From: Pedococcus sp. 5OH_020
GTDB taxonomy: Bacteria > Actinomycetota > Actinomycetes > Actinomycetales > Dermatophilaceae
Direction: 5' to 3'
DNA length: 34,736 bases
NCBI RefSeq assembly: GCF_027812955.1
Contig: NZ_JAPYZV010000017.1
Span: forward strand, 1-34,736
Position 1 is the stretch's first letter. Each line of letters starts with the position of its first letter. A program made the translations under genes and the position numbers. Under the pieces are notes generated by a model, which saw only the letters and a list, made by a program, of their open reading frames with translations, was not told where the DNA came from and did no database searches. Shown here piece by piece: positions 27,773 to 33,104 of this stretch.

Positions 27773-28468
27773 GTGGAAGGCACCGAGGTCCGAAAGCTGG
27801 CCGCACTCGAGGACGCTCACTGGTGGTACCGCGAGCGCCGACACCTGCTCGGTCGAGCCATCACGGGCCTCGCCCCGGGGACCGCAGTGGACATCGGGGC
27901 CGCCGGCGGAGGCAACACCCGGGTCCTGCAGCGTGCCGGCTGGTCGGTGGCGGCGCTGGAGTATGGCGCCGACGGCGCTGAGGTGGCGGCGGAGCGGGGG
28001 CTGTCGGTGCTGCGTGGCGACGCCACCGCGCTGCCGGTGAAGGACGACAGCCTCGACCTGGTCGTGGCGTTCGACGTCCTGGAGCACATCCTTGACCACG
28101 ACACCGCCGTCGCGGAGGTCAGGAGGGCGCTGCGACCGGACGGGTGCTTCCTGGTGGCCGTGCCGGCGGACCCGCGACTGTGGTCCGAGCACGACGTGGC
28201 CGTCGACCACGTGCGCCGTTACACCAGGGTGACGCTCCGGGACCTGCTCGAGCGAGGCGGCTTCGAGCTCACGTCGCTGAGCTCGTGGAACGTCCTCCTG
28301 CGCCCGGTCGTCGCCCTCCGGCGGCGGACGTCCACCGGGTCGGACCTGGAGACGCTCCATCCCGTGGTCAACTTCGGGCTCCGCGGCATCGTGACGCTCG
28401 AGCGCTACCTACCGGTGCACGCTATGCCTGGCGTGACTCTGCTGGCGCAAGCTCGCCCTCTGCGGTGA
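27773..28468 (+). CDS. SAM-dependent class I methyltransferase
   Basis: The 231-residue protein has motif I VDIGAAGGGNTRVL at about residues 39-52, motif II acidic LEYGADG, LRGDATALPVKDDSLDLVVAFDVLEHI (motifs III and IV) and LRPDGCFLVAVPA. The N-terminus has EDAHWWYRERRHLL, a signature seen in methyltransferases linked to glycan or lipid biosynthesis. After the core, HDVAVDHVRRYTRVTLRDLLERGGF is typical of this group. It is encoded convergently with a GT2 polyprenyl-phosphate glycosyltransferase; the two overlap by 47 bp at their 3' ends. The substrate is unknown. It starts at GTG 27773. Confidence 0.85.
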   Translation: MEGTEVRKLAALEDAHWWYRERRHLLGRAITGLAPGTAVDIGAAGGGNTRVLQRAGWSVAALEYGADGAEVAAERGLSVLRGDATALPVKDDSLDLVVAFDVLEHILDHDTAVAEVRRALRPDGCFLVAVPADPRLWSEHDVAVDHVRRYTRVTLRDLLERGGFELTSLSSWNVLLRPVVALRRRTSTGSDLETLHPVVNFGLRGIVTLERYLPVHAMPGVTLLAQARPLR

Positions 28469-29411
28469 GCGGTGCGCCGGAGGAGTCATAGGCCACGAAG
28501 TAGGAAGGCCTTCCCTGAAGGTGGGCGTACATCCGCCCGACGTACTCGCCGAGGATCCCCACGCAGAGCAGCTGGACGGCTCCCACCCCAGTGACGGCGA
28601 CGACCGTGGAGGTCCACCCCGGCAGGGTCCGCCCCAGGAACATCTCGACCAGCGCATAGGCGAGGAGCCCGAGCGCGGCTACTCCGCCGAGCAGGCCGAG
28701 CCAGGTCGCGAACCGCAGGGGAGCGGTCGAGAAGCCGGTGACACTGTCCAGCGAGAGGCGCAGCATGGCGGCCAGCGGGTACTTGGACCTGCCCGCGGCG
28801 CGCTCCTCGCGCCGGTAGGACACCGACGCGGAGGGGAACCCCAGGGCCGGTACGACGAACCGCAGGACGCGGTTGTGCTCAGGTAGAGCGTTGATGGCGT
28901 CGACGGTGGCCCGGGACATGAGCCGGTAGTCGCCGGCGTCCACCTCCGCGTGGGTGCCCGACAGGACACGGATCAGGCGGTAGAAGGCCCGCGCGCTGAG
29001 GCGCTTGAACGCGGAGTCGGTGGAGCGGTCGGTCCGCACCCCGTACACGACGTCCGCGTTCCCCTGCTGCGCGACGTGAAGCATCTCCGGGATGACCTCC
29101 GGAGGGTCCTGCAGATCGGCGTCGAGGGTGACCACGTACCGGCCGCGGGCCGTGGCCAGGCCCGCGGAGATCGCGGCCTGGTGACCGGCGTTGGCCCGTA
29201 GCCGAACCACCCGCAGCTGCGGCCACTCCCGCCGCAGCCTCTCAAGCACGGCGGCGGTGAGGTCGGTGCTGCCGTCGTCGACCGTGAGTACCTCGTACGG
29301 CGCCTTCAGGCTGTCCGCGACGGGGCGAAGACGCTGCACGAGCAGGGGGAGGACGTCTTCCTCGTTGTAGACGGGGATGACGATGCTCAGCTCCGGCGCG
29401 ACGGACCTCAT
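28422..29411 (-). CDS. GT2 family polyprenyl-phosphate glycosyltransferase (DPM1/GtrB-like)
   Basis: The 329-residue membrane enzyme has an N-terminal GT-A domain with ELSIVIPVYNEEDVLPLLV, VLTVDDGSTD, RLRANAGHQAAISAGLATA, VTLDADLQDPPEVIPEML (metal-binding Asp residues) and EVDAGDYRLMSR. Near residues 215-230, YRREERAAGRSKYPL forms the interfacial segment. Two hydrophobic helices follow (about 245-268 and 280-302). This matches enzymes that move a sugar from a nucleotide donor to undecaprenyl phosphate for wall or glycoprotein decoration (GtrB, DPM1). TACGCT ends 7 nt before ATG 29411, suggesting a leaderless mRNA. It overlaps the methyltransferase 3' end by 47 bp. Confidence 0.9.
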   Translation of the reverse strand: MRSVAPELSIVIPVYNEEDVLPLLVQRLRPVADSLKAPYEVLTVDDGSTDLTAAVLERLRREWPQLRVVRLRANAGHQAAISAGLATARGRYVVTLDADLQDPPEVIPEMLHVAQQGNADVVYGVRTDRSTDSAFKRLSARAFYRLIRVLSGTHAEVDAGDYRLMSRATVDAINALPEHNRVLRFVVPALGFPSASVSYRREERAAGRSKYPLAAMLRLSLDSVTGFSTAPLRFATWLGLLGGVAALGLLAYALVEMFLGRTLPGWTSTVVAVTGVGAVQLLCVGILGEYVGRMYAHLQGRPSYFVAYDSSGAPLTAEGELAPAESRQA

Positions 29412-29518: not shown

Positions 29519-29560
29519 AAAAGGCGAGGGCCCCTCGAAGTATGAGTTCGAGGGGCCCTC
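29519..29560 (-). terminator. Intrinsic terminator at the 3' end of the candidate ncRNA
   Basis: A perfect 14-bp stem (29547-29560 with 29526-29539) and a 7-nt loop are followed on the minus strand by GCC and TTTT (29519-29522). It is the only strong hairpin in the window with a clear downstream T-run, and it has meaning only for minus-strand transcription. Confidence 0.75.
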
Positions 29561-30016
29561 TGGTGGAGGCGCGGCACGGCGGCCGGCGGACCGGCCGGTG
29601 ACGACCTCCGGGTGCGGGACCCTCGGCCACCGAGGTGGCGTCCGGGCCTCGCGCCGCGGGATCAGCGCCGCCGAAGCGGCGCTCACGCCCACGGTTCGGT
29701 GCGGGTCCTCCAGCCGGCGAACCGGCTCTCGAACCTGCGCCTGTCGACCGCCCACCTGCCCGGCGAACCGGGCCTGTGGCCACTGCGACGATGACGTCCT
29801 GGATGCTCCGGCAAGCCGGCGCACCCAGGCCGATGCGGTCTGGTCAACGGGCCCGGCGTCCCTCCGCGGCGTCGCCCGCGGACCCACCACCCGAGGGTCG
29901 TGGGACCTCGTCCGGGCTGACCCGGTCAAGGCGGTCCTGCCGTTATCCGGCTGACCTGTGCTCCCGCCTGACGACCGTCCGGGTCTCCCCTTCTCGGCCC
30001 TCCGACCGGAGCGCGT
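29519..30016 (-). ncRNA. Candidate structured non-coding RNA (about 500 nt)
   Basis: No known family is recognised. The minus strand here reads as a string of at least nine short hairpins (listed in the findings), most with 4-nt loops of stable RNA types: UUCG three times (29664-29683, 29712-29727, 29758-29773), CUUG closed by G-C (29801-29826), CUCG twice (29626-29639, 29883-29904) and UCCG (29581-29596). On the plus strand the same loops would read CGAA, CAAG and CGAG. A promoter-like pair lies at its 5' end and a 14-bp terminator with a TTTT run at its 3' end. Short open frames in both directions look like low-complexity translations of GC-rich DNA. Signatures of RNase P RNA, tmRNA and SRP RNA are absent. 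Random hairpins are common in high-GC DNA, so this remains a candidate. Confidence 0.5.
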
Positions 30017-30022
30017 GAGAGA

Positions 30023-30052
30023 TTTCTAGTGCCCGCATCCACCGGCCCGCAA
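30023..30052 (-). promoter_or_regulatory. Candidate promoter of the ncRNA
   Basis: The minus strand has TTGCGG (30052-30047) and TAGAAA (30028-30023) separated by 18 bp, close to the consensus for a housekeeping sigma factor. Transcription would begin near 30016 and read towards the terminator at 29526-29560. Confidence 0.5.
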
Positions 30053-30083
30053 GGCCTTTGCGACGCCACTTTTCCTCCACCGG

Positions 30084-30149
30084 TTACCCACACGGTTCTC
30101 CACATGCGGGCGTGCTCGGGGCGGCAGCTTGTGCACACCCTGTGCACAG
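30084..30149. promoter_or_regulatory. Cluster of four DnaA-box-like 9-mers
   Basis: TTACCCACA (30084-30092), TTCTCCACA (30096-30104), TTGTGCACA (30129-30137) and, on the other strand, CTGTGCACA (30149-30141) each differ by one or two bases from TTATCCACA or TTGTCCACA. They lie in a 66-bp segment between the ncRNA promoter and the small membrane protein gene. The AT content is locally higher than in the surroundings. Confidence 0.5.
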
Positions 30150-30237
30150 AATCGGTGGACGGGATCAGTGGACGGGAGCAGGGCGGCTGCGTCCCGCAGC
30201 TCCACGAAGGCCGGCGTGCTGCCGCTGGGGCGACCGG

Positions 30238-30249: not shown

Positions 30250-30474
30250 ATGTCGTCGTCTCTGGCCACCGTGTTCGCCGCCTCCCAAGAGCAGACCCGT
30301 GAGCTGCCGATGCCTTCGGTCGTCTTCGGCCTGCTGGCGTTCATCGGCTTCCTGTCTCTCCTGGGCGTGCTGTGGGCGTTCCGGGGGACCGCCTCCAAGG
30401 TTGCGGCGGGACGCGTTCAGGGACACCACGGCGACCAGGGCCACCACACCGAGCACATGGGCAGCCACCGCTGA
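30250..30474 (+). CDS. Small single-pass membrane protein upstream of nadD
   Basis: The 74-residue product has a short polar N-terminus, one hydrophobic helix (residues 22-43: [20 protein letters not shown]), a basic segment and a His-rich tail ([16 protein letters not shown]) that could bind metal. I do not know its function. Similar short proteins sit before nadD in related actinomycetes as far as I recall, which makes it likely to be real. The ATG is placed by a TAGGCT -10 exactly 6 nt upstream. It ends 2 bp before nadD and is probably cotranscribed with it. It is also next to the DnaA-box-like cluster. Confidence 0.7.
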
Positions 30475-30476
30475 CC

Positions 30477-31085
30477 ATGCGGCTCGGAGTGATGGGCGGG
30501 ACGTTCGACCCGATCCACCACGGTCACCTCGTGGCCGCCTCCGAAGTGCAGGCCCTCTTCGGGCTGGACGAGGTCGTGTTCGTGCCCACCGGTCAGCCGT
30601 GGCAGAAGGACGAGCGCCAGGTGAGCCCGGCCGAGGACCGCTATCTCATGACCGTGGTGGCGACGGCTTCGAACCCCCGGTTCACGGTCAGCCGCGTCGA
30701 CATCGACCGGCCCGGCAAGACGTACACGATCGACACGCTTCGCGACCTGCGGTCCGAACGTCCGGATGCGGAGCTCTTCTTCATCACCGGCGCCGACGCA
30801 CTGGCCCAGATCCTGTCCTGGAAGGACGCGGAGGAGCTGTTCCGGCTCGCGCACTTCGTCGGCGTGACGCGACCGGGCTACGAGCTGTCCGAGTCCGGCC
30901 TCCCCGCCGACCGCGTAACCCTGCAGGAGGTGCCTGCGATGGCCATCAGCTCGACGGACTGCCGCGCCCGTGTGGCCCGCACCGAACCCGTCTGGTACCT
31001 CGTCCCGGACGGGGTGGTCCAGTACATCAACAAGTACCGCCTGTATGCCGTCGGGGTCCCGGCCGGCACACCGGCTCGAACGTAG
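30477..31085 (+). CDS. nadD: Nicotinate-nucleotide adenylyltransferase
   Basis: NadD adenylates nicotinate mononucleotide to deamido-NAD in NAD synthesis. The 202-residue protein has [20 protein letters not shown] at residues 2-21 with the (H/T)xGH nucleotidyltransferase motif, then [37 protein letters not shown], and the [10 protein letters not shown] motif near residues 161-170, all diagnostic. The ATG 30477 follows the stop of the small membrane gene by 2 bp. It is followed after 7 bp by rsfS, a standard pairing. Confidence 0.96.
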
Positions 31086-32159: not shown

Positions 32160-32363
32160 GTACCGAGGCGCCCGGACGCGCGGCCGCGGCGGCGTGGCCC
32201 CCGCCAGCAGATGCCGCAACGCCTTGCGGGCGTGGCCACGATGCCAGCCGGTGACCTGGCAGATCACGTCCAGCACCAGCGACTTCTCGGCCTTCGTGCC
32301 GTTGCCGTACCTGTCCACCTTGGCCTGGGTGATCTGTCGACGCGCCGCCAACGTGAGCTCCAT
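32160..32363 (-). pseudogene. Transposase N-terminal fragment
   Basis: Starting at ATG 32363, about 68 residues read MELTLAARRQITQAKVDRYG, then KAEKSLVLDVICQVTGWHRGHARKALRHLL and a Pro/Arg stretch ending APRY. This resembles the N-terminal helix-turn-helix region of a group of actinobacterial DDE transposases or integrase-core proteins. Homology stops near 32160, and the frame then runs as antisense shadow into the phosphatase gene. The rest of the transposase, including its DDE domain, is missing. The exact IS family is uncertain. The fragment points away from the tRNA. Confidence 0.65.
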
Positions 32364-32421
32364 CCCGTCATGGTCCGCACGCGGGCATCCTCGAACGAGT
32401 CAACGACCCGATCACGCGGGC

Positions 32422-32439
32422 AGTTGACGTGAGTCAACT
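32422..32439. repeat. Perfect 7-bp palindromic site
   Basis: AGTTGAC and GTCAACT are separated by GTGA. The motif CGAGTCAACGA occurs once more about 25 bp upstream. It lies between the transposase relic and the tRNA-Ala promoter. It could be an operator or a scar of an element end. Confidence 0.5.
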
Positions 32440-32469
32440 CGCGATTTGGTGGATCGGGTGGGTGACTGG

Positions 32470-32475
32470 GTACAC
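32470..32475 (+). promoter_or_regulatory. Candidate -10 (TACACT) for tRNA-Ala
   Basis: TACACT lies 41 bp before the mature tRNA 5' end. A weak -35 (TTGGTG or TGGTGG) is 18-19 bp upstream. A CCCC-TTCG-GGGG hairpin at 32485-32496 lies between the promoter and the tRNA. Confidence 0.4.
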
Positions 32476-32516
32476 TTCCGCAGTCCCCTTCGGGGGGCAT
32501 CCCACTCGGGAGATCC

Positions 32517-32591
<75 letters not shown>

Positions 32592-32598
32592 GAACACC

Positions 32599-32638
32599 AG
32601 ACGGCCCTGACTAGCGGAAGCGCTGAACAGGGCCGTCT
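32599..32638 (+). terminator. Terminator after tRNA-Ala
   Basis: An 11-bp perfect stem (32599-32609 with 32628-32638) encloses a smaller 4-bp hairpin (AGCG-GAAG-CGCT) and is followed by GTTCTGTT. It probably ends the tRNA transcript. Confidence 0.75.
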
Positions 32639-32651
32639 GTTCTGTTGCCCG

Positions 32652-33104
32652 GACGACTGTGCCGCGGTGGCCGACGGGGCGCGCGATGTCTTCGATGGCC
32701 ACGCCGGAGTCCTAGAGGATCGAGAGAAAGCTGTGCCGCAGCTCGCGAGGGGCCCGAGCCTTGGCGCCGAGACCAGCCGCATCGAGGACGGCGCGGAGCG
32801 ACCGCCGCACGTTGTGGGGATCAAGTGCCGTGCCGGTGCGGCTGGTGAAGACCAGCTGGTCCTCCTTCCAGCCCCTGCCAACCGAGGCGCGCTGCTGCTC
32901 CTTGTGACGCCTCAGAGCATCGCCCGCCCGTTGCGGCAGCGTTAGGTTACGGCGACGCGGGATCGACAGCAGGCGCTGCAGGGTCGACCTGCTCAGATAC
33001 TCGGCCTTGCGCTGCAGCCACAGGCGGACGTCCTCCGATGAGAGCCCGGCGGGCCGTCGCCGTCCCAGCTCGGGATGATGTGGCGCTCGGCGAGGATGTG
33101 GCAA
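32652..33104 (-). pseudogene. Decayed tyrosine recombinase (integrase)
   Basis: The minus-strand frame shows parts of an actinobacterial ICE or phage integrase. GLSSEDVRLWLQRKAEYLS and STLQRLLSI come from the SAM-like N-terminal domain. LVFTSRTGTALDPHNVRRSL and AGLGAKARAPRELRHSFLSIL come from the catalytic domain, with the RELRHSF box carrying His-x-x-Arg-type residues. Between the two, the region that normally holds the first catalytic Arg is missing. A TAG at 32712-32714 interrupts the frame within the usual SxLSDSGV motif; beyond it, DSGVAIEDIARPVGH continues in frame and then stops. The final His and Tyr are absent. It is non-functional. Its 3' end faces the tRNA, as expected for an element that used the tRNA 3' end as att. 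Confidence 0.8.

Follow-up and report, generated by a model that had tools for sequence, protein, structure and literature searches.

The intergenic region between a family 2 glycosyltransferase (GT2) gene and nadD probably carries a stand-alone gene for a structured RNA that acts in trans (Table 1). A comparison at the level of sequence reveals conservation, covariation, complementarity of two loops, promoter and terminator sequences and the lack of a coding pattern, and we infer that the RNA is transcribed and that it acts in trans. A preliminary description, made from the letters of the window (the whole stretch of 34,736 nt that was analysed), had proposed that the minus strand may encode a new structured RNA; this proposal is supported by the conservation, the compensatory changes, the absence of a coding pattern and the lack of an Rfam match. 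Beyond that description, we found a pair of loops that may kiss, a CUCAUAC loop that recurs in other families of the class and DnaA-box-like sites upstream of the promoter.

Table 1. Features of the RNA locus and its surroundings (positions in the window).
Feature	Position	Strand	Remarks
Structured non-coding RNA	29519..30016	-	~490 nt; fold z -6.72, conservation; both ends inferred
-35 element TTGCGG	30047..30052	-	Conserved in genus, varied in family
-10 element TAGAAA	30023..30028	-	18-nt spacer to -35 element
Conserved core domain	29832..29963	-	Three branches and a closing helix; covered by R1 and R2
Hairpin, hexaloop GCGACG	29863..29882	-	7 bp; loop 29870-29875
Hairpin, loop CGUCGCA	29779..29795	-	Loop 29784-29790; would kiss GCGACG
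Rapidly changing 3' part (UUCG/CUCG hairpins)	29561..29778	-	Includes several of the tetraloop hairpins
Intrinsic terminator	29526..29560	-	14-bp stem, 7-nt loop CUCAUAC (29540-29546), then GCCUUUU; U run 29519-29522
DnaA-box-like site array	30080..30150	-	Upstream of RNA promoter
DnaA-box-like site TTACCCACA	30084-30092	read on +
DnaA-box-like site TTCTCCACA	30096-30104	read on +
DnaA-box-like site TTGTGCACA	30129-30137	read on +
Family 2 glycosyltransferase (GT2) gene	28422..29411	-	Neighbour; PF00535, E 6.9e-34
74-aa protein gene	30250..30474	+	Upstream of nadD in most family loci searched
nadD	30480..31085	+	Neighbour, divergent to RNA; name from the preliminary description

Extent, strand and non-coding character

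The start of the RNA was placed 6-7 nt past the -10 element and its 3' end at the U run; total lengths between 404 and 889 nt were measured in 10 of the 11 genus genomes. All nine hairpins listed in the preliminary description are present on the minus strand (30000-30011, 29883-29904, 29863-29882, 29801-29826, 29758-29773, 29712-29727, 29664-29683, 29626-29639 and 29581-29596), and the one at 29863-29882 has the 7 bp ascribed to it, its hexaloop now being specified as GCGACG. Several of the tetraloop hairpins among them fall in the fast-changing 3' part; the conserved core lies at about 29776-30016. The promoter TTGCGG-18-TAGAAA and the 14-bp stem with TTTT were both confirmed, the latter as a GC-rich stem followed by a U run, as in an intrinsic terminator.

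Folding of the minus strand gave a z of -6.72, and that of the plus strand a z of -3.71; in each case 0 of 100 shuffles was as good. Since the plus strand also beats all 100 shuffles, folding alone leaves the strand unsettled, and it is the conserved promoter and terminator, both reading on the minus strand, that settle it. The high GC content and the good folding of the plus strand are also what speaks for chance, i.e. for GC-rich palindromes in an untranscribed spacer, but this reading is highly improbable in view of the covariation described below, the conserved promoter and terminator, and a position that is kept across genera.

In agreement with the earlier view that no convincing protein is encoded here, a Pfam search of four ORFs across the region yielded no match. 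Across 11 genomes, substitutions in the RNA core by position modulo 3 are distributed as 251/164/240, with no strong codon period, compared with 109/80/665 in nadD, and 89 of the 91 internal gaps in the core are 1 or 2 nt long. A protein gene was rejected on these three grounds. The 74-aa protein encoded between the RNA and nadD has one membrane-like stretch, as judged by eye, and no Pfam match.

Conservation, covariation and loop complementarity

The DNA at the locus is conserved beside nadD in all 10 other genus genomes, with 73-81% identity in the best matches (within 29568-30163). A covariance model of 132 positions, R1, was searched against 186 family genomes and matched, besides the 11 genus genomes, eight genomes of four genera at E < 5e-5. 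With the filters off, R1 was run on 19 non-genus loci upstream of nadD: seven matched at E up to 0.05, each of them oriented divergently from nadD, and the other 12 gave no match; the 10 loci fetched around family matches all reached E of 5e-4 or better, and all adjoin nadD. R2, a covariance model built from 23 sequences, matched 54 of the 186 family genomes at E up to 0.05, leaving 132 without a match at that threshold. The 54 come from 16 of 53 genera; the weakest matches, with E of 0.02-0.04 (G034, G075, G076 and G167), may be due to chance. Among 59 order genomes, with few candidates scored per genome, R2 matched two, both of genus g1, and nothing outside the genus. When R2 was applied to 43 named stretches with an exact pattern, 17 matched at E up to 0.01, one of which is a false match in a Streptomyces stretch (L140; 27.5 bits) that lies inside a protein reading frame.

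Covariation was evaluated by counting the pairs with changes on both sides, against shuffled and slid controls. The 11 genus sequences (A1) yielded 85 pairs with RNAalifold, 18 of them with changes on both sides. In A4, an alignment fitted to its model, 24 of 39 core pairs are changed on both sides, with a score of 0.436 versus 0.169 in shuffled and 0.05-0.09 in slid controls. A5 consists of 15 full-length sequences from related genomes that were aligned by MAFFT alone, with no model; here 26 of 87 pairs are changed on both sides versus 11.0 (sd 2.3) in shuffled controls, and the score is 0.222 versus 0.135 shuffled and 0.04-0.07 slid.

The hexaloop GCGACG (29870-29875) is complementary to the loop CGUCGC (29785-29790), which suggests a kissing interaction between the two. 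A hairpin loop that pairs with the first hexaloop at six of six positions, G-U allowed, is present in 36 of 42 family genomes examined, most of the 36 sharing the identical two loops; the partner loop lies 15-46 nt into the downstream stretch in all 36. Three genomes (G175, G125 and G187) pair at five of six positions, and in three others (G094, G022 and G139) the first hexaloop was not located by the script. The control with shuffled downstream sequence gave a mean of 2.5 and a maximum of 9 genomes in 200 runs, and permuting the letters of the first loop gave a mean of 3.4 and likewise a maximum of 9, versus the 36 observed. In four genomes of one genus (G027, G120, G122 and G123), GCGACA occurs together with UGUCGC or UGUCGU, a compensatory change that may represent a single event, and G017 has a wobble version of the partner loop, CGUCGU.

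The RNA reads towards GT2, and its terminator lies ~108 nt before the start codon, as would befit a cis-acting leader (riboswitch or attenuator) of GT2 in which the terminator serves as the switch. Yet the terminator stem retains its 12 pairs in every one of the 15 A5 sequences, and no anti-terminator is apparent on inspection of the A5 consensus. The neighbours in the loci searched are nadD on one side and GT2 or proA on the other; at three loci (L090, L091 and L118) GT2 was not found and the next gene is proA, which converges on the RNA. Because the terminator precedes GT2 and the RNA persists where proA converges, we regard a leader as quite unlikely.

Terminator loop, promoter and upstream sites across the class

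The terminator hairpin contains CUCAUAC in all 11 genus genomes and in many family loci, where changes in the stem keep the pairing; the exceptions noted by eye are G125, which lacks CUCAUAC, and G022, which has CUCACAC. The 7-nt anticodon loop of CAU tRNAs is CUCAUAA, and it is possible that CUCAUAC acts as an anticodon mimic.

The pattern GGCCC-N4/6-CUCATAC-N4/6-GGGCC was matched against a sample of 394 class genomes. It is present in 60 of them, representing 33 of 137 genera, and the backward control of the pattern gave none among the matches listed. Although the pattern leaves the N letters free of pairing, the listed stems appear by eye to be mostly self-complementary. We collected 66 distinct hairpin loci, 65 of them with enough upstream DNA. 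The promoter pattern TTG[CT]NN-N16/19-TA[CG][AG]NA precedes 43 of the 65, versus 0 on the reverse strand and a mean of 0.4 (maximum 3) in shuffles, a count in which many loci are close relatives and for which the pattern was drawn up after seeing these loci. A second set comprises 46 loci fetched later, 45 of which are new (L248 repeats L178). Here a looser promoter, with the last base free, precedes 30 of 46, where shuffles gave 2.8 (maximum 9) and the reverse strand gave 6; the strict promoter precedes 9 of 46, versus 0.7 (maximum 4) and 1, respectively. Three of the 30 (L236, L238 and L245), with distances above 600 nt, may be chance occurrences.

The other 16 loci of the second set lack the looser promoter, and in 12 of them a reading frame of at least 120 aa ends within 250 nt of the hairpin. 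Five loci of genus g126 (L213, L217, L218, L224 and L226) have an adenosine deaminase gene (PF00962) whose stop codon lies 4-45 nt before the CUCAUAC hairpin, and a sixth such gene, in L211, lies 206 nt from it; four other reading frames at promoter-less loci gave no Pfam match. Since adenosine deaminase genes stop just before it, the CUCAUAC hairpin also ends protein genes, at least five of them. At many class loci the CUCAUAC hairpin terminates another RNA, which has a promoter of the type seen beside nadD and DnaA-box-like (TGTGGA) sites upstream.

DnaA-box-like sites were defined as having at most one mismatch to TTRTCCACA, the DnaA-box consensus. All 11 genus genomes have 3-5 such sites in the 250 bp upstream, versus 0-1 in the other ~3.35 kb, and DnaA would presumably bind them. 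In the first class set (43 loci), the density of TGTGGA/TCCACA upstream of the promoter is 1.86 per 260 bp. Shuffles give 0.15, the 260 bp downstream give 0, and 377 other windows give 0.045. In the second class set the upstream density of TGTGGA sites is 1.07 per 260 bp, as compared with 0.15 for shuffles and 0.16 for the bodies. A TGTGGA or TCCACA lies upstream at 17 of the 30 promoter-positive loci; the other 13 have neither. By eye, the TGTGGA sites upstream of genus and class loci are often spaced by ~11-12 bp, about one helical turn.

The upstream sites in the genus and the TGTGGA sites at other class loci would also fit a locus whose DNA is the functional part, titrating or modifying DnaA in the manner of datA, with the RNA as a by-product of a needed transcription; read-through from a tRNA gene is reported to affect datA (PMC10950094). 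We consider such a locus unlikely, since a by-product would not require the structural covariation that the RNA shows.

In A6, an alignment of eight class RNAs of ~190 nt (of 11 from the script), 22 of 62 pairs are changed on both sides. A search of seven class loci against Rfam at E up to 0.5 returned no match except one tRNA. R2 does not link the class RNAs to the nadD-side RNA: on 27 hairpin loci (24 from the class pattern, plus L151, L152 and L154) it gave 13 matches at E up to 0.5. L181 (23.9 bits) and L198 (21.9 bits) are the only conspicuous ones that also sit in place, and these scores prove nothing because the false Streptomyces match inside a reading frame reaches 27.5 bits. Class loci vary in their flanking genes: the 10 flanking proteins searched include Cpn60, ThrRS, P450, LacI, CoA transferase III, class V aminotransferase, PNTB and DUF445, and two gave no Pfam match. 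The class RNAs share their architecture with the nadD-side RNA, and common descent is likely.

A few of the class loci merit separate description. L153 (2220-2466) and L154 (2112-2690), located after a ThrRS gene, carry an RNA distinct from the nadD-linked one; it shares the promoter type and the CUCAUAC terminator. L154, from G032, holds two tandem copies of this ThrRS-side RNA, with repeats like GACACGCCGACGACACGCC upstream, and G032 carries the nadD-linked RNA as well. L151 and L152 (G039 and G057) have TCCACA sites, a TTGCG-TAGAA promoter and a CUCAUAC terminator, L151 adjoining a Cpn60 gene; their RNA is a probable relative, whose 5' part resembles the nadD-side RNA by eye.

Tentatively, these loci may form an actinobacterial RNA gene family, absent from Rfam and present in many families of the class, defined by a TTGyG-N17/18-TAGAMA promoter, an upstream DnaA-box-like array, a CUCAUAC hairpin docking one conserved partner and fast-evolving bodies, which would link DnaA state or replication to gene expression; this wider proposal is considerably less secure than that of a stand-alone RNA gene beside nadD.

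Proposed role and relation to known RNAs

In the mechanism that we propose for the stand-alone RNA, a sigma-70-type promoter (30023-30052) would drive a ~490-nt transcript whose 5' portion forms a hairpin domain, followed by a branched core and by a second domain that the kissing loop ties to the core. Small hairpins would make up a variable tail, and the terminator hairpin would expose CUCAUAC, the likely contact point with a conserved partner, either a protein or an RNA with GUAUGAG. Since DnaA-box-like sites sit just upstream, we suppose that the RNA is a protein-bound regulator whose output tracks growth or replication. The single likeliest role would be binding to the transcription machinery, as for Ms1 and CoRP, but this is a guess that is less likely than not to hold.

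There are few large conserved RNAs in bacteria for which no partner is known. Canonical Hfq is absent from actinobacteria, which are not known to have a canonical 6S RNA either. By way of the CUCAUAC loop, relatives and a partner could be sought in many families, and a possible link between DnaA and an RNA could be approached through the upstream sites.

No catalogued Rfam family matches the RNA. Searched against 4227 Rfam families at the gathering score, the window yields only a tRNA at 32517-32589, in the tRNA-Ala gene (32517-32591); within the RNA region, E up to 10 gave three matches of 11.8-15.3 bits, far below the cut-off, and six family loci gave tRNAs only. No published description of the nadD-side RNA was found among the entries listed from the literature searched, whose coverage mostly excludes subscription journals. 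Beside the tRNA-Ala, a reading frame at 32264-32881 has an end that resembles, by eye, a cut transposase or integrase.

CoRP, a 516-nt RNA of Corynebacterium that binds RNA polymerase, has homologs only in Corynebacterium, between tRNA genes (PMC11077062). Both RNAs are ~500 nt long, intergenic and actinobacterial, but the nadD-side RNA does not lie between tRNA genes: CoRP is flanked by tRNA Gln/Glu, whereas the sole tRNA of the window, tRNA-Ala, is three genes away.

Ms1 (mycobacteria; scr3559 in Streptomyces) is likewise a structured RNA with its own gene, found in actinobacteria and a few hundred nt long, and it has been predicted in Pedococcus and Phycicoccus (PMC9130861, Table 4), which together raise the possibility that the nadD-side RNA is a member of this family of RNAs that bind the RNA polymerase core. 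Ms1 lies beside a HAD hydrolase, and the predictions come from searching genomes by the annotation of neighbouring genes, the HAD hydrolase for instance (PMC9130861). Here, in the loci searched, the neighbours are nadD and either GT2 or proA, rather than the HAD hydrolase or oxidoreductase expected for Ms1, and none of the 8 of 10 class-locus flanking proteins with Pfam matches is a HAD hydrolase. On this gene context, membership of the Ms1 family is unlikely. A search for Ms1 elsewhere in the genome by way of its HAD hydrolase gave a single TIGR01490 match, below the cut-off, with no intergenic stretch above 300 nt at that locus by eye; the matching reading frame looks, by eye, like SerB.

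6S RNA is also a stand-alone structured RNA, but it forms one rod with a central bubble, unlike the multi-branched nadD-side RNA with its proposed kissing loops; it was rejected, with no Rfam 6S match even at E up to 10. RNase P RNA, of which the preliminary description had recognised no signature, can be set aside as well: RF00010 has no match here, and the genome has its own copy elsewhere, on contig C27 (296 bits). In ANTAR target RNAs, a pair of hexaloop hairpins each carry A at loop position 1 and G at position 4, whereas the two conserved hexaloops of the present RNA are GCGACG and CGUCGC; an ANTAR RNA was rejected on these two loops.

OLE, GOLLD, ROOL and the raiA motif are large conserved RNAs whose function is not evident from the surrounding genes. 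The nadD-side RNA matches none of the 4227 Rfam families at the gathering score, but it resembles these RNAs in being large, conserved and of a function that its neighbours do not make evident.
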